64,000 bases of DNA from Nocardia vinacea (GTDB lineage Bacteria > Actinomycetota > Actinomycetes > Mycobacteriales > Mycobacteriaceae). This document shows, in pieces, positions 52,268 through 62,757 of this stretch (its first letter is position 1; each line of letters opens with the position of its first letter). Where the stretch lies: NCBI RefSeq assembly GCF_035920345.1, contig NZ_CP109149.1, positions 5,456,001-5,520,000 on the forward strand, written 5' to 3'. The notes beneath the pieces were generated by a model. It saw nothing but the letters and a program-made list of their open reading frames with translations. It had not been told where the DNA came from and did no database searches. The position numbers were made by a program, and so were the translations under genes.

Positions 52268-52677
52268 GTTTTGTTTGACCTCTTCCTGTTTGGTGATTGG
52301 TGGTGCCCCCAAGGACGGGCCTCGAGGGCGCTTGCGTGGTCGCCCGCCAGAAGAGGGATCGCGCAGTGTATTTGCGAACCGCTGATACTTCCGTGGCGAG
52401 ACTCGACCGTGACACCGATCCAGTAGCAAGCAAACTGACGCGAGCATCGCCCACGCCCCGCTGCATCGGCATCGGCATCGAAAGGTACTTCGTAAGTCGA
52501 TAGACCCTGGATGGGTTAATTTCTGGCTTCGTCTTATCGGCGTGGTCGGGCCGGTTTGGAAGCTTCTAGACCAGCGGTGGGCAAATCGCGACGGACCGAC
52601 CCATCCACGCATCCCAGTTGCATCGAAGACAGACAGTGACATTCACACGTGTGCCGTTCAACGGCGAAGGGAAGCCA
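52268..52677. other. Divergent promoter region
   Basis: 410 bases between the divergent microprotein A gene and the ice-binding-domain gene. No gene is supported. A short CATCGG triple repeat (about 52466-52481) is seen. Promoters for both directions should lie here, but I cannot name -10/-35 pairs with confidence. Confidence 0.4.
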
Positions 52678-53889
52678 GTGACATTGCCGTCCAACTCGCC
52701 CCGGGCGCGTCCGGTCGGACGATTGATCATCGCTGCGGTGACGGTTGTGACCGCCACAGTTCTGTTGATATTCAATGGAACAGCGTCAGCGGCCCAGCCC
52801 CCTGTCGGGTTGGGGACAGCCGCGTCCTTCGCGGTACTGGCGGGCCAGACGGTCACCAACACGGGGCCTACGATCATCGCCGGTGATGTGGGGGTCAGCC
52901 CGGGGAGTGCGATTACCGGGTTTCCGCCGGGACTTATTACCCCCGGAACGGGAACCTTCCACGCTGCCGACGCGGTGGCGTTGCAAGCGCAAACGGATCT
53001 GACTACGGCATATAACGATGCTGCGGGTCGCGGTCCCGCCACCGCTGCTCCCCCAGATCTCGGCGGCCAAACACTGGTCGCGGGGGTGTACAACACGGCG
53101 GGCCCCATGGGCCTAACCGGGACAGTCACCCTCGATGGGCAAAATGATCCCAACTCGGTCTGGATCTTCCAAGCGGGATCTACGTTGATCACGGCATCGA
53201 ACAGCACGGTCGCCCTCATCAACGGGGCCTCACCGTGCAACGTCTTCTGGCAGGTGGGTAGCTCCGCGACACTGGGCACCAACACCACCTTCGTCGGAAC
53301 CATCATGGCGTTGACCTCGATCTCGGCGCAGACCGGAACCATCGTGGAGGGACGGCTTTTGGCGCGAAACGGCTCGGTCACCCTGGACAACAACAGGATC
53401 ACCCGACCCAACTGCACTATCCCACCGACGTCCACGACGACAGCACCGCCGACAACGACAACGACCGGGCCGCCGACAACGACGACCGGGCCGCCGACAA
53501 CGTTGCCGACAACGCCGGCGACAACCATCCCCGTCCCCGGCGGCGGTGGCGGAGTTATTCCCGTCCCCGGCGGCGGTGGCGGAGTTATCCCCATCCCCAT
53601 CCCTATTCCCATCCCCATCCCCATTCCGATTCCCGAGGGCGGTATTCCCGGTATCGGTATTCCGGGTCTTCCCGGTGGTCCAGGTGGACCGGGTGGCCCG
53701 GGTGGACCGGGTGAGCAGGGACCCGGTGAGCAGGGACCGGGTGAGCAGGGACCCGGCGAGCAAGGACCCGGCGAGCAAGGACCCGGCGAGCAAGGACCCG
53801 GCGAGCAAGGACCCGGCGAGCAAGGACCCGGCGGTGGCGGGGACGTTCCCGAAGGGTCTCCGGAAACGGGTGGCGGTGGTACTGCCTAG
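52678..53889 (+). CDS. Secreted ice-binding-domain (DUF3494) protein with Thr/Pro and Gly-rich repeats
   Basis: 403 aa. A signal-like start ([20 protein letters not shown]) is followed by a DUF3494 beta-helix domain (residues 40-240): [58 protein letters not shown] and [19 protein letters not shown]. Then come [10 protein letters not shown] linkers, [10 protein letters not shown] units, an IPIP run, GGP triplets and eight GEQGP units ending [11 protein letters not shown]3494 includes antifreeze and adhesin proteins; binding of ice is not implied here. GTG 52678 has GAAGGGAAG before it. A strong terminator follows. Confidence 0.85.
53710..53829 (+). repeat. 15-nt tandem repeat encoding GEQGP
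   Basis: Eight contiguous copies of a 15-base unit (GGTGAGCAGGGACCC-like) encode Gly-Glu-Gln-Gly-Pro. The Gly spacing is 3,2,3,2, so it is not a collagen triplet register, unlike the GGP run just before it. Later copies (from about 53755) are nearly identical at DNA level (GGCGAGCAAGGACCC), a sign of recent expansion. Confidence 0.85.
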
Positions 53890-55025: not shown

Positions 55026-56453
55026 TCAGCCGAGCAGCTTCTTCTGCACCTTCCCCATGGCATTGCGCGGCAGGGAATCCACCACGCGGACCTCGCGCGG
55101 GCGCTTGTGTACCGAAAGCTGTTCGGCCACATGCTCGATGAGAGCCTTCTCGATGGAATCCGCTGCGGCACCTCGCAATACGACGTACGCGACGATCCGC
55201 TGTCCCAGATCGGCGTCGGGGAGCCCTACTACCGCAACCTCGGCCACATCCGGATGTCCGAGCAGTACGGTCTCGACTTCGCCCGCGCCGATGCGATAGC
55301 CACCGGACTTGATGAGATCGACCGATTCCCGGCCCACAATGCGGTGGAAACCATCGGCATCGATGGCCGCGACATCACCGGTCTTGAACCAGCCGTCCTC
55401 GGTCCAGCATTCGGCGGTCGCCTCGGCCCGGTTGCGGTAACCGTCGAACAGCATCGGACCGCGAACCTGCAGGCCACCGATGCTCTCGCCGTCATGCGCG
55501 ACATCCGCACCGGCCTCGTCCAGCAACCGGGTCTCGACACCAGCGACGGGCGTGCCGACCCATCCGGGACGGCGCTCCCCATCGAACCGAGTGGACAGCG
55601 TGATCATCGTTTCGCTCATCCCGTACCGCTCGATCGGCGCGTGCCCGGTGAGTTCGCGCAGCCGCTCGAATACCGGCACCGGCAGCGGCGCACTACCCGA
55701 GACGAGCAGCCGAGCAGCACGCAATTTCCTTGCGGCATCGGGATCTTCGACAACGCGCGACCACACGGTCGGCACCCCGAAATACAGCGTGCCACGCGCG
55801 TCCGCATATGCCTGCGGTGTCGGCTTCCCGGTGTGGATCAGCGGGCTGCCCACCCGCAGCGGCCCGAGCACACCGAGGATCAGCCCGTGCACGTGGAACA
55901 GCGGAAGACCGTGCACCAGAACGTCATTCGGCGTCCAGGCCCACGCGTCCGCGAGCGCATCGAGCCCGGCGGCAATGGCACCGCGATTGAGCACAACCCC
56001 CTTGGGCAGACCGGTGGTCCCCGAGGTGTACAGCACGAATGCCGGTGTGGCGGCGTCGGGTTCGGGATAGGTATGCCACGAGCGCGCGTGCACGCGCACC
56101 GGAACGACCGGTAGATCCGTCCCTTCCGGCGCCTCGCCCAACCACGCCTGCGCACCGGAGTCGGCGAGAATATGCGCCAGTTCGGCGGTCCCCGAATCCG
56201 GTGGCACCGGCACCACCGTCACCCCGGCGATGAGGCAGCCGACCACCGCGAGAACCGTGGTCACGGTCGGTCGCGCCAGTACCGCCACCCGATCAGCGCG
56301 TGCGATGCGCTCGGCCACCGAGGTTGCCGCACCGAGCAGATCACTGCGCGACAATGTCACCCCGTCGATGGTGACGGCATCCGGTATGTCCGCTCCCCCG
56401 GCGACAGCGAGCGGATCGAGCGAACTAAGCAGCAGCGGCGGACCGAACGACAT
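55026..56453 (-). CDS. fadD36: Acyl-CoA synthetase FadD36-like
   Basis: 475 aa, very close to the size of Rv1193. ANL-superfamily motifs: FVLYTSGTTGLPKGVVLNRG, ERYGMSETMITLSTR, GWFKTGDVAAIDADGFHRIV and ESVDLIKSGGYRIGAGEVE, with the catalytic Lys near the end (LPRNAMGKVQKKLL). It activates a short or medium acid, malonate-type in some relatives; the substrate is not certain. It is divergent from the first DUF2236 gene, sharing the region with its operator. Confidence 0.88.
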   Translation of the reverse strand: MSFGPPLLLSSLDPLAVAGGADIPDAVTIDGVTLSRSDLLGAATSVAERIARADRVAVLARPTVTTVLAVVGCLIAGVTVVPVPPDSGTAELAHILADSGAQAWLGEAPEGTDLPVVPVRVHARSWHTYPEPDAATPAFVLYTSGTTGLPKGVVLNRGAIAAGLDALADAWAWTPNDVLVHGLPLFHVHGLILGVLGPLRVGSPLIHTGKPTPQAYADARGTLYFGVPTVWSRVVEDPDAARKLRAARLLVSGSAPLPVPVFERLRELTGHAPIERYGMSETMITLSTRFDGERRPGWVGTPVAGVETRLLDEAGADVAHDGESIGGLQVRGPMLFDGYRNRAEATAECWTEDGWFKTGDVAAIDADGFHRIVGRESVDLIKSGGYRIGAGEVETVLLGHPDVAEVAVVGLPDADLGQRIVAYVVLRGAAADSIEKALIEHVAEQLSVHKRPREVRVVDSLPRNAMGKVQKKLLG

Positions 56454-56536
56454 TCGCTCACGCTACTTCGGCACGACATCGCACCACCACGCTCCCCCTT
56501 GACGACAACGTGACGGTTGACACACCCATGAGACGG

Positions 56537-56563
56537 TGAGAACGTCTAAGCAATTCCTTCTCA
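56537..56563. promoter_or_regulatory. TetR-type operator at DUF2236 gene 1
   Basis: TGAGAA (56537-56542) and TTCTCA (56558-56563) form an inverted repeat spanning 27 bases, the same span as the sites before the other two DUF2236 genes. An extra TGAGAC half-site lies at 56529. TTGACA is at 56517-56522. Confidence 0.65.
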
Positions 56564-56584
56564 ACGATGAGCACGGGGTCGACA

Positions 56585-57436
56585 ATGACCAGCCCGTTTC
56601 GTAAACCCGAGTCCACACCCGCCGAGGACGCCTTCGATATCGAGCGATACCTCGACGGTGTCGCCGCGTTCTTCGGCGGAACGGCGAATGTCATCATGCA
56701 GCTCAGTACGTTGCCGGTCGGCTACGGCGTGCTGGAGAGCACCGTCGACAGCGGCAAGGTCATGCTGCATCCGATCAAGCGGCTGCGCACCACCCTCACC
56801 TACCTCGCGGTCGCCATGCTCGGCACCGACGATGAGCGCGACGTCTATCGCGAGGCCGTGAACCTGTCGCATCATTCGGTCAAGTCGACCGCGGCGAGTC
56901 CGGTCAAGTACAACGCCTTCGATCCCGAACTGCAGCTCTGGGTGGCCGCCTGTCTCTATTGGGGCGCCCGCGATCTCTATGAGCGCATGCACGGACCGAT
57001 GAACGACGCCGACGCGGAAGCCTTCTACCGCTACGGATCTCGGCTCGGCACCACGCTGCAAATGCGTCCGGAAATGTGGCCCGCCGACCGTGTCGCCTTC
57101 GACGAGTACTGGACCGAACATCTCGCGAAGACCACCATCGATCCCCCGATCCGCGACTACTTCAACGATCTGATCGATCTGAAGATGCTCCCGCGCCCCG
57201 CCCGCTTACTGTTCGCCCGCTTCCAGCGCTTCGTGGTCACCGGCTTGCTGCCGGCGCATCTGCGCGACCAGATGGGCATGACCTGGACCGCGGACGACGA
57301 TCGGAAACTCGCCAGAATTATGCACACCACCGGCTCGATCACCGCACGAATGCCTAAGCAGGCCAGGCTGTTTCCGATCAATGCCTACCTGTGGGATATG
57401 CGCATCCGCAGGCGGTTCGGCCTGCGGCTGGTGTGA
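56585..57436 (+). CDS. MpaB/DUF2236-type oxygenase-like protein (copy 1)
   Basis: 283 aa. Conserved with copies 2 and 3: GGTANVIMQLSTLPVGYGV, ESTVDSGKVMLHPIKRLRTT, KYNAFDPELQLWVAACLYWG, LGTTLQMRPEMWP and DLIDLKMLPRP. This is the PF09995 (ER-bound oxygenase MpaB/MpaB', rubber oxygenase) family; some members bind heme b. Several invariant His residues (HP, SH, HGP, HLR) could serve as ligands. No signal peptide is visible. ATG 56585 fits the starts of the paralogs; ATG 56567 is an alternative. Confidence 0.85.
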   Translation: MTSPFRKPESTPAEDAFDIERYLDGVAAFFGGTANVIMQLSTLPVGYGVLESTVDSGKVMLHPIKRLRTTLTYLAVAMLGTDDERDVYREAVNLSHHSVKSTAASPVKYNAFDPELQLWVAACLYWGARDLYERMHGPMNDADAEAFYRYGSRLGTTLQMRPEMWPADRVAFDEYWTEHLAKTTIDPPIRDYFNDLIDLKMLPRPARLLFARFQRFVVTGLLPAHLRDQMGMTWTADDDRKLARIMHTTGSITARMPKQARLFPINAYLWDMRIRRRFGLRLV

Positions 57437-57467
57437 TTCAGTCGGCGAAGCCGACGGGGTGGGTAAG

Positions 57468-58097
57468 TTACAGCCGGAACGAAACAACCACATGGTCGCG
57501 CGCGAACTTGCGGATCGCGGCGTCGTCGTCGAGTGGAAGGACCGTTTGCGGCGTCAGCGCCAAGGACAGCGCCGTCCGCGCGATCATCTCCGCGACCGGC
57601 TCCGGATCGTATTCGGGCAACTTGCCCTCCCCCTGCAGCCGGGTGATGAATTCGGCCACATAGTCGCGGCCGAGCTCGAGCACCGGCGCACCCTTGACCG
57701 TGAGATACGGCAGTACGATCTCCGGCTCGGTCTTCAACAACCGGTCGAGCAGCTTATTGCCGCGCAGCCCATTCAGGAAGGCGACGAACAGCTCCACGAT
57801 CTGATCCTCGGCGCCGGCATCGCGATCGACCTGCCGCTGCTGCGCCGCATCCACCTCCTCGACGAATTGCCGCGCCTGCCGCATCGCGACGGCCTGGATC
57901 AGATCGGATTTGCTCGCGAAGCGCCGGTAGAGCGTGGCCAGCGAAAGCCCACACCGCCGCGCGACCTCCACCATGCTGGTCCGCTTGATACCGAAGTCCA
58001 GGAACGCCAGCAGAGCGGCATCCAGCACCCGTGTCTGGTTGCGGTCCTCCGGGCCGGTGCTGCGCACCAGTGCCAGCAGTCTGGTCAGCGTCGCCAT
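57468..58097 (-). CDS. TetR-family transcriptional regulator
   Basis: 209 aa. HTH: AALLAFLDFGIKRTSMVEVA, RRCGLSLATLYRRFASKSDL. It lies between DUF2236 copies 1 and 2 and is divergent from copy 2; the palindrome at 58212-58240 sits in the shared promoter region. The same pattern precedes all three oxygenase genes, so it probably represses all of them and itself. ATG 58097 is preceded by GGTGGAAG. The ligand is unknown; fatty or steroid-like compounds are possible. Confidence 0.9.
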   Translation of the reverse strand: MATLTRLLALVRSTGPEDRNQTRVLDAALLAFLDFGIKRTSMVEVARRCGLSLATLYRRFASKSDLIQAVAMRQARQFVEEVDAAQQRQVDRDAGAEDQIVELFVAFLNGLRGNKLLDRLLKTEPEIVLPYLTVKGAPVLELGRDYVAEFITRLQGEGKLPEYDPEPVAEMIARTALSLALTPQTVLPLDDDAAIRKFARDHVVVSFRL

Positions 58098-58211
58098 AAC
58101 TTCCACCCCTATTCCGCTCCGATGACACGATGACATCGCTAGCATCGCATGCCGTCAGTCAGCGCCACCCACGAACGCCCCCGAAAGCGTGGTTGACACC
58201 ACCGCGAGGCA

Positions 58212-58240
58212 ATGAGACGGTTTATATAGAACCTTCTCAT
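58212..58240. promoter_or_regulatory. TetR-type operator at the divergent TetR/DUF2236 gene 2 promoter
   Basis: ATGAGA-c-GGTT (58212-58222) and AACC-t-TCTCAT (58230-58240) are symmetric about 58226 with one mismatch. The TGAGA to TCTCA span is 27 bases, as at the other two sites. It contains TTTATATAGA, a possible -10 region. Confidence 0.75.
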
Positions 58241-58285
58241 CCATCCGCCTTTGTCGCGGCCGGCCACAGAAAGGCGAGGTCAACG

Positions 58286-59170
58286 ATGACCGAACCCCTC
58301 CGCAGTGCCGATTACCTGCCGACTCCCGACCGCGTCGGCCCCGCCGCCGTCGAGCCCATCACCCCGGAAACCGTCGAGAAGTACGTCGACGGAGTCGCGG
58401 CCTTCCTGGGCGGCGCCGCCAATGTGATCATGCAGCTGAGCCTGCGTCCGGTCGGGCGCGGCGTACTGGAGAGCACGGTCGATAGCGGCAAGGTCACACT
58501 GCACCCGATCAAACGGCTGCGCACCACCCTGAGCTATCTCGCCGTGGCACTGATGGGCTCCGATGAAGAGCGCGCGCTGTATCGGGAGGCGGTCAACGAA
58601 TCGCATCGACCGGTCCGCTCGACCTCGGCGAGTCCGGTGCGATACAACGCCTTCGATCCCACACTGCAACTCTGGGTCGCGGCATGCCTCTATTGGGGCA
58701 TCGACGACCTCTACACCCGCATGCACGGGCCGATGAATCCCGATGTGGCCGAGGACTTCTACCACTACTGCGCCCGGCTCGGCACCACCTTGCAGATGCG
58801 ACCGGAGATGTGGCCCGCCAATCGCGCGGATTTCCAACGGTATTGGGACGAGAACCTGCCGAAGCGCGGGATCGAACCCGCCCTGCGCGACTACTTCGAC
58901 GCACTCATCGATCTGAAGATGATGCCGCGCCCAATTCGATTCGCCTTCGCCCGACTCCAACGGTTCGTCGTAACCGGCCTGCTGCCACAGCATTTGCGTA
59001 ATGAGATGCGAATGACCTGGTCCCAGCGCGATCAGCGCCGCTTCGATCGGCTGCTGCGGATGATTTCGGCGGTGCACACCCCGCTACCGAAGCCGGTGCG
59101 AATGTTCCCGTTGAACGCCTATATGTTCGACGTTCGCCGCCGCATCCGACTGGGTAAACCGCTCGTATAA
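58286..59170 (+). CDS. MpaB/DUF2236-type oxygenase-like protein (copy 2)
   Basis: 294 aa. Same core as copy 1: GGAANVIMQLSLRPVGRGVL, HPIKRLRTTLSYLAVALMG, RYNAFDPTLQLWVAACLYWG, GTTLQMRPEMWPANR and DLIDLKMMPRPIRF. The N-terminal 30 residues differ. ATG 58286 follows GAGGTCAACG. Expressed from the promoter shared with TetR. Function as oxygenase is inferred from the family; the substrate is unknown. Confidence 0.86.
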   Translation: MTEPLRSADYLPTPDRVGPAAVEPITPETVEKYVDGVAAFLGGAANVIMQLSLRPVGRGVLESTVDSGKVTLHPIKRLRTTLSYLAVALMGSDEERALYREAVNESHRPVRSTSASPVRYNAFDPTLQLWVAACLYWGIDDLYTRMHGPMNPDVAEDFYHYCARLGTTLQMRPEMWPANRADFQRYWDENLPKRGIEPALRDYFDALIDLKMMPRPIRFAFARLQRFVVTGLLPQHLRNEMRMTWSQRDQRRFDRLLRMISAVHTPLPKPVRMFPLNAYMFDVRRRIRLGKPLV

Positions 59171-59194
59171 GGGGACCGTTTGACACGCTATCGA

Positions 59195-59231
59195 GGTGAT
59201 GAGAAGGTAAATACCAATTCTTCTCATCACC
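59195..59231. promoter_or_regulatory. TetR-type operator at DUF2236 gene 3
   Basis: Arms GGTGATGAGAAG (59195-59206) and CTTCTCATCACC (59220-59231) are perfect complements around 59213. TGAGA to TCTCA spans 27 bases. TTTGACAC precedes it at about 59179, as TTGACAC does before the other copies. Confidence 0.8.
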
Positions 59232-59274
59232 TTTCGATTTCCGCCGATCGACCCCCTGAAAGACGAGGCCAACG

Positions 59275-60144
59275 ATGACCTTGCCGCTACCCGTGGAGCC
59301 GCCCGATCCCGGACCGACCTGTCGCTACGGCACCGTCGACAACTTCGCGATGGACGAATTCTGGAGCGGCATCGCGGCCTTCCTCGGCGGGACGGCGAAT
59401 GTCATCATGCAGCTGAGCCTGCGGCCGGTCGCGTACGGCGTCATGGAGAGCACGGTCGAATCCGGCCGGATCGATGTGCACCCGTGGAAGCGGACGCGCA
59501 CCACGCTGACGTATCTCGCGGTGGCCCTGATGGGCACCGAGGAGGATCGTGCGAACTATCGCGAGGCCGTCAACGGCTCACATCGCGCAGTGCATTCCAA
59601 GCCGGGCGCCGCGGTCAAATACAACGCCTTCGACCCGAAGCTGCAACTGTGGGTCGCCGCCTGTTTGTATTGGGGCTTGGTCGATCTGGAGGAGCGGCTG
59701 CACGGGCCGATGGACGAGGACACCGCGGATGTGCTGTACCAGTACGCCGCTCGGCTCGGCACCACCCTGCAGATGCGACCGGAAATGTGGCCCCGCGACC
59801 GAAAAGCCTTCCAGGAGTACTGGAATACCACTCTCGCGACCAAGACCGTAGATGCCCGCACCCGCGCCTACTTCAACGATCTCATCGATCTGAAGATGGT
59901 CGCCTGGCCGTTGCGGATCTTCGGCCCGCTGCAGCGGTTCTTGGTGACCAGTCTGCTGCCTCCGCACCTGCGTGCCGAGATGCGCATGAACTGGAGTGAA
60001 CGCCAGGAGCGCTTCGCGAACCGACTGCTACGCGCGATCGGCGCCGTGCACCGCATACTTCCCAAGCCCGCCAGGCTCTTTCCGATGAATCTCTGCCTGT
60101 GGGATATGCGCAGGCGGCACCGTCTCGGCAAGCCGCTCGTCTGA
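59275..60144 (+). CDS. MpaB/DUF2236-type oxygenase-like protein (copy 3)
   Basis: 289 aa. Core motifs GGTANVIMQLSLRPVAYGVM, HPWKRTRTTLTYLAVALMG, KYNAFDPKLQLWVAACLYWG, GTTLQMRPEMWPRDR and DLIDLKMVAWPLRI. The most divergent copy near the N-terminus (PVEPPDPGPTCRYGTVDNF). ATG 59275 follows GAGGCCAACG. It has its own operator and promoter, 104 bases after copy 2. Confidence 0.86.
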   Translation: MTLPLPVEPPDPGPTCRYGTVDNFAMDEFWSGIAAFLGGTANVIMQLSLRPVAYGVMESTVESGRIDVHPWKRTRTTLTYLAVALMGTEEDRANYREAVNGSHRAVHSKPGAAVKYNAFDPKLQLWVAACLYWGLVDLEERLHGPMDEDTADVLYQYAARLGTTLQMRPEMWPRDRKAFQEYWNTTLATKTVDARTRAYFNDLIDLKMVAWPLRIFGPLQRFLVTSLLPPHLRAEMRMNWSERQERFANRLLRAIGAVHRILPKPARLFPMNLCLWDMRRRHRLGKPLV

Positions 60145-60181: not shown

Positions 60182-61123
60182 CTAGGACTTGCTGACCAAT
60201 GCGCGCAGAAAGAACGTGAGGTTGGCCGGACGTTCGGCGAGGCGGCGGGTCAGATAGCCGTACCACTGGCTGCCGTACGGCACATACACCCGCATGGCAT
60301 TGCCCGCGGCGGCCAGGCGCAACTGCTCGGGATCGCGGATACCGTAGAGCATCTGGTGCTCGAACCGGTCTGGGCCACGGCCGGTTTCGGCGGCCAGCTG
60401 TTCGGCGGCGAGGATGAGCACCGGATCGTGGGTGGCCACCATCGGATAGCCGGCACCACACATCAGGATCTCCAGACAGCGCAGATAGGAATCTGTCACT
60501 TCGGCGGAGCGCTGGTAGGCGACGGTATGCGGTTCCCGATATGCGCCCTTACACAAGCGGATTCGTGATCCGGACAGCTCGCGACAGTCCGCCTCGGTGC
60601 GATGCAGATAGGCTTGCAAAACGACACCGAGCCAGGGGAATTCGGCACGCACTTCACGAACCGCGGTCAGCGTGGCTTCGGTGGTGGTGTGGTCCTCCGC
60701 GTCGACGGTGACCCACACTCCGGCCTGGGCCGCTTTGGTGCACAGAATGCGCAGATTTTCGGTGGCAATGGCCGGGCCGTCGACGGGCAGCGCCTGCCCG
60801 AGCGCGGAGAGTTTCACCGACACCTCGGTGCGCGCCGTGGCATCTCGGAAGCCGTTCATTGCCGCCAGATCGTTGATCAGCGAAAGATATTCGGCCACCG
60901 TGACATCGGCCTGTGCCCGGTCGGTGGTGTTCTCCCCGAGGAAGTCGACGCTGACCAGCCGACGGCTCGCGAGCAGCTCCCGCACCACCGGAATCAACTC
61001 GTCACGGCCCTCACCGGCCACGAAGCGCCGAACGATCTCCGCGGTAACCGGCGTTGCGGTGACAATGCGCTTCATCCGCGGCGACGCGGAGGCCGCGAGA
61101 ATGACCGGCCGCAGTGGATTCAT
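60182..61123 (-). CDS. putA: Proline dehydrogenase
   Basis: 313 aa monofunctional FAD enzyme oxidising proline to pyrroline-5-carboxylate at the membrane face. Barrel motifs: VSVDFLGENTTDRAQADVTV, ARTEVSVKLSALGQALP, VWVTVDAEDHTTTEATL, SRIRLCKGAYREP, and the C-terminal RVYVPYGSQWYGYLTRRLAE. ATG 61123 overlaps the rocA stop (ATGA), so the two steps of proline breakdown are coupled, as in Rv1187-Rv1188. Confidence 0.95.
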   Translation of the reverse strand: MNPLRPVILAASASPRMKRIVTATPVTAEIVRRFVAGEGRDELIPVVRELLASRRLVSVDFLGENTTDRAQADVTVAEYLSLINDLAAMNGFRDATARTEVSVKLSALGQALPVDGPAIATENLRILCTKAAQAGVWVTVDAEDHTTTEATLTAVREVRAEFPWLGVVLQAYLHRTEADCRELSGSRIRLCKGAYREPHTVAYQRSAEVTDSYLRCLEILMCGAGYPMVATHDPVLILAAEQLAAETGRGPDRFEHQMLYGIRDPEQLRLAAAGNAMRVYVPYGSQWYGYLTRRLAERPANLTFFLRALVSKS

Positions 61124-62757
61124 TCCGACCCCATGTGCGGATACCGGTAATCACCCGGCGGCACGAAGGTCTCCTTGATCGTGCGTGGCGCGACCCAGCG
61201 CAGCAGGTTCAGCGGCGAACCCGCCTTATCGTCGGTGCCCGAGGCGCGCGCACCGCCGAAGGGCTGCTGACCGACGACCGCGCCGGTCGGCTTGTCATTG
61301 ATGTAGAAATTGCCTGCGGCGAATCGCAGTGCGGCCGAGGCCTGTTCGACGGCCTTGCGGTCCTGTGCGAAGACCGCGCCGGTCAGTGCGTAGGGTGCTG
61401 CCGACTCCACCTGGGCCAATACCGCCGCGTAAGAGCCGGGTTCGGCATCGTCGTAGACGTGTACCGCGAGGATGGGGCCGAAATATTCGGTGGCGAAGGC
61501 GTCGTCGTGCGGATCGTCCACCACCAGCACCGTGGGTCGGACGAACCAGCCCTCGCTATCGTCGTATTCGCCACCCGCCGGGATGGCGATACCCGCCGAC
61601 CTGGCGCGTTCGATGGCGGCGACATTCTTGTCGTAGGCGCGCCGATCGATCAGTGCCCCACCGAAATTCGCCAGATCGGCGACATCGCCGTAGCTGATTT
61701 CGCGGGTCAGTTGTAGGAAGTCGTCACCGATCGTGCGCCACACCGAGCGAGCGATATATGCACGCGAAGCCGCCGAACATTTCTGGCCCTGATATTCGTA
61801 GGCACCGCGAATCAGCGCGGTGCGCAAGGCATCCGGATCGGCGGACGGGTGCGCGACGATGAAGTCCTTACCGCCGGTCTCACCCACCAAGCGTGGATAG
61901 CCGTGATAGCGGCCGATATTCGCGCCGACCTGGGACCACAGGAACTGAAATGTCTTGGTGGAGCCGGTGAAATGGATACCCGCCAGCCGCGGATCGACGA
62001 GCGCGACCTCCGACAGTTCGACACCGTCGCCGGTCACCATATTGATGACGCCCGGCGGCAGTCCCGCCGCCTCCAGCAGCTGCATCGTGTAGAAGGCCGC
62101 GAGCGTCTGCGTCGGCGAGGGCTTCCACACCACGGTATTGCCCATCAACGCGGGCGCGGTCGGCAGATTGCCCGCGATCGCGGTGAAGTTGAAGGGCGTG
62201 ATCGCGTAGACGAACCCCTCCAGCGGCCGGTAGTCCATCTGGTTCCACACGCCGGCGCTCGACTGCGGCTGCTGCTGCAGAATCTGGCTCGCGAAGGCGA
62301 CATTGAACCGCCAGAAGTCGACCAATTCGCACGGCGCATCGATTTCGGCCTGCTGGACCGTCTTGGATTGACCGAGCATGGTCGCGGCGGCGACCGTCTC
62401 CCGCCACGGCCCGGCCAGCAAATCCGCCGCGCGCAGGAAGACGGCAGCCCGCTCGCCGAAGGTCGTGCTGCGCCAGCCGGGCGCCGCCGCGATCGCGGCC
62501 TCGATGGCGCCGTGGGCTTCCGAATGGGTGGTGTCGGTGTAGGTGCCGAGCACCTGCCGATGCCGGTGCGGGGCGACGATATCGTGCCGAGCCCCGATGC
62601 CCGGCCGGTGTTTGCCACCGATGACCAGCGGAATATCGATGGATTCGGCGGCGATCTCGGTGAGCTTGGTGATCAGCAGTTCCCGCTCAGGGCTGCCCGG
62701 CGCGTAGGAATGCACCGGCTCGTTGCTGGGGATAGGGACTACCGTGACAGCGTCCAT
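61120..62757 (-). CDS. rocA: 1-pyrroline-5-carboxylate dehydrogenase
   Basis: 545 aa, near the mycobacterial size (543). Oxidises P5C/glutamate semialdehyde to glutamate with NAD. ALDH motifs: YAITPFNFTAIAGNLPTAPA, the Glu in PRLVGETGGKDFIVAHPS, the nucleophile Cys in EYQGQKCSAASRAYI, and EYFGPILAVHVYDD. The second step of proline catabolism. It is first in the operon with putA. Confidence 0.96.
   Translation of the reverse strand: MDAVTVVPIPSNEPVHSYAPGSPERELLITKLTEIAAESIDIPLVIGGKHRPGIGARHDIVAPHRHRQVLGTYTDTTHSEAHGAIEAAIAAAPGWRSTTFGERAAVFLRAADLLAGPWRETVAAATMLGQSKTVQQAEIDAPCELVDFWRFNVAFASQILQQQPQSSAGVWNQMDYRPLEGFVYAITPFNFTAIAGNLPTAPALMGNTVVWKPSPTQTLAAFYTMQLLEAAGLPPGVINMVTGDGVELSEVALVDPRLAGIHFTGSTKTFQFLWSQVGANIGRYHGYPRLVGETGGKDFIVAHPSADPDALRTALIRGAYEYQGQKCSAASRAYIARSVWRTIGDDFLQLTREISYGDVADLANFGGALIDRRAYDKNVAAIERARSAGIAIPAGGEYDDSEGWFVRPTVLVVDDPHDDAFATEYFGPILAVHVYDDAEPGSYAAVLAQVESAAPYALTGAVFAQDRKAVEQASAALRFAAGNFYINDKPTGAVVGQQPFGGARASGTDDKAGSPLNLLRWVAPRTIKETFVPPGDYRYPHMGSE

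Follow-up and report, generated by a model that had tools for sequence, protein, structure and literature searches.

The arrangement of genes examined here, in a 64,000-nucleotide stretch of Nocardia vinacea DNA (the window), raises the question of whether a TetR-type regulator controls three neighboring PF09995 genes through a common operator, and what the products of those genes may do. Most PF09995 genes have no known function. Nocardia has many of them, and mycobacteria show a strong expansion of the family (PMC3388012). The genes of the locus are as follows.

55026..56453, minus strand: acyl-CoA synthetase gene (fadD36), divergent from m1; PF00501 and PF13193
56585..57436, plus strand: m1, PF09995 protein of 283 aa; PF09995 225.5 bits
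57468..58097, minus strand: tetR (product TetR1), 209 aa; PF00440 44.4 bits, PF18556 28.9 bits
58286..59170, plus strand: m2, PF09995 protein of 294 aa; PF09995 221.8 bits
59275..60144, plus strand: m3, PF09995 protein of 289 aa; PF09995 200.6 bits
60182..62757, minus strand: proline dehydrogenase and L-glutamate gamma-semialdehyde dehydrogenase genes; PF01619, TIGR01236 800 bits (cut-off 613.6)

A sequence-only reading of this DNA had described three paralogs of 283-294 aa and a TetR gene within 3.7 kb, and the gene coordinates and profile matches bear this out: m1, m2, and m3 are members of PF09995 (MPAB_Lcp_cat; cut-off 23 bits) with pairwise identities of 57-63%, and TetR1 has an N-terminal TetR helix-turn-helix domain, its PF00440 (TetR_N) score exceeding the cut-off of 24 bits. 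An alternative ATG at 56567 would extend m1 to 289 aa. The product of 55026..56453 matches the NCBIfam acyl-CoA synthetase model PRK07787 (784 bits, cut-off 575); its name, fadD36, is taken from the sequence-only reading. That reading also regarded the set as an insertion between fadD36 and putA-rocA, a view that does not hold, because in 58 of 64 loci fadD36 comes before the PF09995 and tetR genes, and this is therefore the usual order. The pair at 60182..62757 is a conserved flank and is not thought to be part of the system. The three-paralog set is present as described at this locus but is not the typical form; at the threshold applied, 6 of 148 genomes have m2 and m3 side by side, and three copies are the exception. 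In a quick tree, m1 groups with first-position genes (54 rows, support 99), most second-position genes form another clade, and m3 lies in a clade of its own (4 rows, support 100). This separation speaks against a recent triplication, which was rejected; m3 is a separate, older lineage.

Each of the three genes is preceded by an inverted repeat and a promoter-like pattern, with the following elements.

56517..56522, plus strand: TTGACA, -35-like box of m1, 14 nt 5' of operator 1
56537..56563: predicted operator 1, TGAGAACGTCTAAGCAATTCCTTCTCA, exact TGAGA-N17-TCTCA, conserved in relatives
56540-56545: GAACGT, -10-like, within operator 1
58193..58198, plus strand: TTGACA, -35-like box of m2, 14 nt 5' of operator 2
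58213..58239: predicted operator 2, TGAGACGGTTTATATAGAACCTTCTCA, exact TGAGA-N17-TCTCA
58216-58221: GACGGT, -10-like, within operator 2
59180..59185, plus strand: TTGACA, -35-like box of m3, 14 nt 5' of operator 3
59200..59226: predicted operator 3, TGAGAAGGTAAATACCAATTCTTCTCA, exact TGAGA-N17-TCTCA
59203-59208: GAAGGT, -10-like, within operator 3

The claim that a TGAGA-N17-TCTCA repeat precedes every paralog is right and proved stronger than it had been put. The 27-bp core is exact at all three genes, and the grouping of PF09995 genes with like-patterned predicted operators beside a TetR gene is supported. The range originally given for the first repeat (56537-56563) is correct, but those for the middle (58212-58240) and third (59195-59231) hold extra bases, the exact cores being 58213-58239 and 59200-59226; the third lies inside perfect arms of 13 bp (59194-59206/59220-59232) rather than 12. 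The middle repeat is indeed situated between the divergent TetR gene and m2; it faces the m2 promoter, with roughly 115 bp between it and the start of tetR, and the self-regulation proposed in the sequence-only reading is at this stage conjecture for tetR. A second box is found between tetR and the second-position gene in three other loci (L071, L072, and L075). The left half-site of operator 2 is TGAGAC; otherwise the palindromes read TGAGAA-N15-TTCTCA. The promoter pattern is the same at m1, m2, and m3 (TTGACA, 17 bp, GAnnGT). It should be noted that GAnnGT is a poor -10 and that a generic sigma-70 scan found no promoter.

The sequence-only reading had named absence of the motif from orthologous loci as a refutation, and it withstands this check. 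A site is present at every one of the 120 PF09995 genes in the 63 retrieved loci that have a TetR1 orthologue, 108 being exact and 12, read by eye, having one mismatch in one arm; 106 of the exact sites fall inside the scanned region and 2 (L023, L029) outside it. At the same 120 genes, eight other spacings (13-16 and 18-21) and four other motifs gave 0/120. In the loci compared, the arms and spacing are constant while the inner bases vary, and of ten loci that were read, two have one gene without an exact box (the m3-type gene in L354 and m2 in L352). An exact box precedes 5 of 18 m-like genes that have no tetR orthologue nearby, and 131 of 148 Nocardia genomes have a TetR1 orthologue of at least 76% identity.

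The nature of the m proteins is suggested by their fold and conserved residues. In a model of m2 built without heme (pLDDT 90), the protein has the predicted fold of trans-anethole oxygenase and of latex clearing protein (Lcp), with Foldseek E-values of 0.004-0.1 for Lcp and 8s1j. Trans-anethole oxygenase and bacterial heme-containing C=C cleaving oxygenases were reportedly described by Purwani et al. in 2024 (PDB 8s1j); the identity of this enzyme to an m protein is 11%, and no regulation was seen for it. Sequence searches of the PDB with m2 and with profile A1 found no relative, and hhalign of profile A1 against L009, an Lcp-like protein encoded in this genome, found no connection. R77, T81, and H107 are invariant in 29 sequences and, by motif and fold, correspond to the Arg/Thr/His triad of DUF2236 (R164/T168/H198 of LcpK30); the T and H columns match the Lcp-like proteins that this genome encodes, with R off by one in L009. 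A missing heme ligand had been suspected because the m proteins read WVA where WVH would be expected, and was dropped since in the Lcp-like proteins the conserved His aligns with H107. Inspection by eye shows no twin-arginine leader in the 283-294 aa m proteins (the m2 region reads EAVNESHRPVRS).

The box also occurs far from this locus. Of 6 exact sites in the 10.36-Mb genome, 3 are at m1-m3, and the reversed pattern occurs there once; 148 Nocardia genomes have 829 sites versus 49 reversed-pattern controls. By genome position, a site at another PF09995 gene lies at 5081453 and the aldehyde dehydrogenase site at 5300870. When 80 sites in 13 genomes were read individually, 41 preceded PF09995 genes, 20 of these elsewhere in the genome, and 13 preceded one aldehyde dehydrogenase; 4 overlap the start of a NUDIX-like gene, possibly as an effect of coding constraint, and for 7 no gene was assigned. 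The motif is thus a feature of the locus, as originally proposed, but is not confined to it. Local half-sites are mostly TGAGAA and distant ones TGAGAG/T/C, and therefore at least two related regulators are likely, on the sequences, to read the variants. The best candidate for the second, TetR2, is 53% identical to TetR1 over 177 residues and has a nearly identical recognition helix.

The reading toward which these observations incline us, taken as a whole with slightly more belief than doubt, is that TetR1 is a local repressor of m1-m3, that their products are C=C-cleaving heme oxygenases, and that a second related regulator acts elsewhere. A TetR1 dimer or pair of dimers would bind the 27-bp palindromes, which overlap the -10 region and the probable start site of each putative promoter, and would be released by a ligand that is probably hydrophobic. 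The m proteins, with their PF09995 fold, would act in the cytoplasm as b-heme oxygenases and split C=C bonds in alkenyl or isoprenoid compounds, giving aldehydes or ketones, and their substrate ranges may have diverged; the adjoining acyl-CoA synthetase and the distant aldehyde dehydrogenase with its related box could carry the products into beta-oxidation. TetR2 or a similar regulator would read the TGAGAG/T/C boxes at other PF09995 genes.

Other explanations have to be weighed against this. That the repeats are chance, or functionless sequences copied along with their genes, might be proposed for paralogs, whose upstream DNA could have been copied; however, these paralogs are just 57-63% identical, the arms and spacing are kept where inner bases differ, and the box also precedes an unrelated aldehyde dehydrogenase. 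Genus-wide conservation and the controls contradict this explanation, and its probability is negligible. It is very unlikely that the m proteins are heme or lipid sensors or carriers with a PF09995 fold rather than oxygenases. The short subgroup has no solved relative by sequence and a fold alone reveals no function, but both of the closest folds are oxygenases and the m proteins keep the R/T/H residues required for Lcp activity, according to the available text on that enzyme (PMC6311187).

Two further alternatives concern the identity of the regulator. If TetR1 alone controlled all dispersed TGAGA-N17-TCTCA sites, the sixth half-site base only tuning affinity, the arms and spacing shared by local and distant sites would be accounted for, as would the mean number of sites per genome, which is 6.04 where a close TetR1 is present (131 genomes), 2.71 where there is a relative of 63-65% identity (7 genomes), and 1.90 where there is none (10 genomes). 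The drop is partly trivial, because a genome that loses the locus also loses the two or three sites within it, and the genomes counted are related. The aldehyde dehydrogenase box follows the presence of TetR1 (13/13 vs 0/12), which would favor TetR1 rather than TetR2 at that gene, but the comparison is confounded by the relatedness of the genomes and perhaps by paralogy, the enzymes in the second group showing just 62-65% identity. We nonetheless consider control by TetR1 alone rather unlikely, since the half-site classes separate almost completely and, of 17 genomes that lack a close TetR1, 13 still have a strong PF09995 gene beside the first-listed site. This persistence of boxes, the near-identical recognition helix, and the occurrence of a 50-56% identical TetR in 34 of 35 other Nocardia genomes, among the matches listed, would fit TetR2 or another paralog as the main reader of all sites, with TetR1 a specialized or weak partner. 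This seems quite unlikely, as in the loci read it is the TetR1 locus that has the TGAGAA class, and the 12 kb around the TetR2 gene of this genome contain neither a PF09995 gene nor an exact box.

The statement in the sequence-only reading that no system of this form had been described was too strong, and its interpretation overall is partly supported. TetR control of a PF09995 gene, lcp, is already known: the available portions of the sources name LcpR of Gordonia polyisoprenivorans VH2, LcpRB of Streptomyces coelicolor, and ACTI_59620/ACTI_69510 of Actinoplanes (PMC8235351, PMC7413915), and AcrR-type regulators adjoin lcp in Nocardia genomes (PMC9070631). As is predicted for TetR1, these LcpR-type regulators, often encoded next to their targets, bind imperfect palindromes within the promoters of PF09995 oxygenase genes. 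However, Lcp is secreted and has about 400 aa, in contrast to the short m proteins; the Nocardia locus has one box per paralog and a dispersed box common to an aldehyde dehydrogenase; and the LcpR/LcpRB palindromes printed in the portions available, compared by eye, do not match TGAGA-N17-TCTCA (PMC8235351, PMC7413915). Nro1, the nitrile rubber oxygenase of Gordonia, is by description an MpaB-family protein of similar length (about 300 aa), with a b-heme spectrum and aldehyde or ketone products, but it is membrane-bound and the available text mentions no TetR regulator; MpaB of mycophenolic acid biosynthesis, the PF09995 namesake, cleaves an isoprenoid double bond via an aldehyde but is a fungal biosynthetic enzyme (PMC12724181, in part). 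Mycobacterial TetRs with divergent neighbors and palindromic motifs, including Rv0275c and Rv0825c in the motif table, resemble TetR1 in arrangement (divergent TetR and predicted palindrome), to which the comparison with the available text was confined (PMC4482099). A literature search, mostly outside subscription journals and with partly off-topic results, found no description of the m1-tetR-m2-m3 locus or the box, which is weak evidence of absence. The genes adjoining Rv0275c and Rv0825c are presumably DUF2236 genes.

More broadly, and tentatively, with doubt outweighing belief, the locus may belong to a Nocardia alkene-cleavage network, in which at least two paralogous TetRs with near-identical recognition helices split the 27-bp box by the sixth base of the half-site, with TGAGAA used at the fadD36-m1-tetR-m2 locus and TGAGAG/T/C at other places, and jointly control many PF09995 C=C-cleaving heme oxygenases and a product-taking aldehyde dehydrogenase; some species would have a cholesterol-oxidase-like GMC enzyme and a molybdopterin oxidoreductase under the same control. 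The conserved box before many PF09995 genes and the aldehyde dehydrogenase offers a handle for grouping these genes into pathways and for finding the inducing compound, and two half-site classes beside two TetR paralogs would make it possible to test cleanly how duplicated regulators come to differ in specificity.

The window covers positions 5456001-5520000 of a 10.36-Mb Nocardia genome that consists of one contig. The window locus comprises three PF09995 (MpaB/DUF2236) paralogue genes, m1 to m3, one TetR-family gene and three exact copies of a 27-bp predicted operator, TGAGA-N17-TCTCA (the box), arranged as follows.

55026-56453, minus strand: acyl-CoA synthetase gene, flank on the m1 side
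56537-56563: exact box
56585-57436, plus strand: m1, PF09995 protein
57468-58097, minus strand: tetR, TetR regulator (TetR1)
58213-58239: exact box
58286-59170, plus strand: m2, PF09995 protein
59200-59226: exact box, enclosed by perfect 13-bp arms
59275-60144, plus strand: m3, PF09995 protein
60182-62757, minus strand: proline dehydrogenase and L-glutamate gamma-semialdehyde dehydrogenase genes, flank on the m3 side

The m proteins score 200.6-225.5 bits against the PF09995 profile and are 57-63% identical to one another; m2 is 97% identical in N. vinacea NBRC 16497, the closest named relative among the matches listed. Elsewhere in the window, an ORF at 52618-53889 (plus strand), which presumably resembles DUF3494 ice-binding proteins, has a C-terminal run of EQGPG-like repeats.

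The exact box occurs six times in this genome, three of them at the locus, versus one match to the reversed pattern. The other sites lie at 5081453, upstream of another PF09995 gene; at 5300870, upstream of an aldehyde dehydrogenase gene whose homologues bear the box in 13/13 genomes read; and at 7214302, upstream of a gene whose 451-aa product matches DUF445 below the threshold, a site that recurs in 4 of 12 other genomes. A tetR orthologue is present in 63 of 79 loci fetched from the best 80 of 92 matches, and these 63 hold 120 m genes, of which 106 have an exact box within the scanned region, two (L023, L029) have it outside that region, and 12 have a box with one arm mismatch; eight alternative spacings and four alternative motifs were found at 0/120. 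Among 18 m-like genes lacking a nearby tetR orthologue, five have the exact box and one matches a 16-base spacing.

The sequence TTGACA stands 14 or 15 nt upstream of 110 of 111 sites (loci L012-L075), and site position 9 is T in 116/116 and position 8 is G in 102/116, both being free in the search pattern, which fixes the A at position 5. The resulting layout, TTGACA, 17-18 nt, GAnnGT, places a −10-like hexamer within the left arm, so that a protein bound to the box would cover the −10 and the probable start. It counts against a promoter reading that a generic promoter scan detected none and that GAnnGT is a poor −10. In loci of N. higoensis, N. shimofusensis and N. farcinica, the interval from tetR to the second-position gene holds two exact boxes with a spacing of about 65 bp, and each box has a plus-strand TTGACA of its own (L071, 5847 and 5912; L072, 5845 and 5911; L075, 3563 and 3627).

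In a tree of PF09995 genes built by a quick method, 54/54 first-position genes form a single clade (support 99), as do 57/63 second-position genes (support 91), and m3 falls in a separate clade of four, next to which stand genes from N. acididurans, N. higoensis and N. shimofusensis (support 87-92). Genes of the m3 type (E <= 1e-120) occur in 17 of 148 genomes. At ten such loci fetched, m2 and m3 are adjacent in six and the m3-type gene is alone beside tetR in four, the exact box being absent at the L354 m3-type gene and the L352 m2; by coordinates, six of the other seven lie beside tetR and one elsewhere. An acyl-CoA synthetase gene precedes the cluster in 58/64 loci. In 15/64 loci (e.g., L015, 4458-5174), not including the window, the m1-tetR gap encodes a protein of 238 aa whose start is leader-like and which has no NCBIfam match. 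At G000:C1:1957236-1957586 lies a PF09995 remnant that is interrupted by in-frame TGA stops.

The exact box occurs 829 times across 148 Nocardia genomes, versus 49 matches to the reversed pattern; in 114 genomes from the family's other genera the counts are 75 versus 46. Eighty sites in 13 genomes (12 with a complete site listing plus the window's own) were each assigned by coordinate.

Genes downstream of the box, except where stated (80 sites)
PF09995, TetR1 locus: 21
PF09995, elsewhere: 20, in 12/13 genomes; one assignment is weak (G026:C32, 55 bits, 358 bp off)
Aldehyde dehydrogenase: 13, one per genome in 13 genomes
DUF445-like: 5
Presumed NUDIX-like, site overlapping gene start: 4
Molybdopterin oxidoreductase: 3 (G003:C86:53226, G014:C219:17266, G004:C408:1527)
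DUF6285: 3 (G003:C9:9464, G014:C77:62890, G004:C351:5334)
GMC: 2, closest to the cholesterol oxidase model without reaching its cut-off
Acyl-CoA dehydrogenase-like: 1
Presumed trpC-like: 1
No gene matched: 7

The same three genomes carry the box before both DUF6285 and molybdopterin oxidoreductase genes, which are possibly further targets in one species group.

When the half-site is read as TGAGAx and classed by x, A occupies x in 198/222 half-sites at TetR1 loci versus 1/40 at distant PF09995 genes (22 G, 11 T, 6 C; Fisher p ~1e-28, though the rows are related) and 3/26 at aldehyde dehydrogenase genes. This split is compatible with two regulators. A paralogue in the window's genome, TetR2 (9621480-9622007), is 53% identical to TetR1 over 177 residues, and their recognition stretches, SPATLYRRF and SLATLYRRF, respectively, are one residue apart; among the matches listed, TetR relatives with 50-56% identity occur in at least 34 of 35 other Nocardia genomes. 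The 131 genomes that have a close TetR1 average 6.04 sites each, the seven that have a 63-65% relative 2.71, and the ten that have neither 1.90, a drop that is partly trivial because loss of the TetR1 locus itself takes away 2-3 sites. In 13 of 17 genomes without a close TetR1, the first-listed site adjoins a strong PF09995 gene. Of the genomes with a close TetR1, 13/13 have the box at the aldehyde dehydrogenase gene, versus 0/12 others having an enzyme match (30 genomes searched, five without such a match), and the enzymes of genomes lacking a close TetR1 are only 62-65% identical.

According to excerpts of two reports, lcp, a PF09995 gene, is under TetR-type control (PMC8235351, PMC7413915), but the palindromes given there differ from TGAGA-N17-TCTCA; an excerpt of a third places regulators beside lcp or DUF2236 genes in Nocardia (PMC9070631). 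Our literature search found no description of a locus in which each short-PF09995 gene has its own box, of the conservation of such a locus across Nocardia, or of a dispersed TGAGA-N17-TCTCA box in two classes. TetR control of a PF09995 gene is thus already known from lcp, and the short-PF09995 locus with its two-class dispersed box is apparently undescribed. Other PF09995 genes adjoin other, more distant TetR genes in four genomes (G020:C2:2221698, G027:C8:3644, G007:C108:12934, G039:C2:1445302), and the pairing of PF09995 with TetR therefore recurs.
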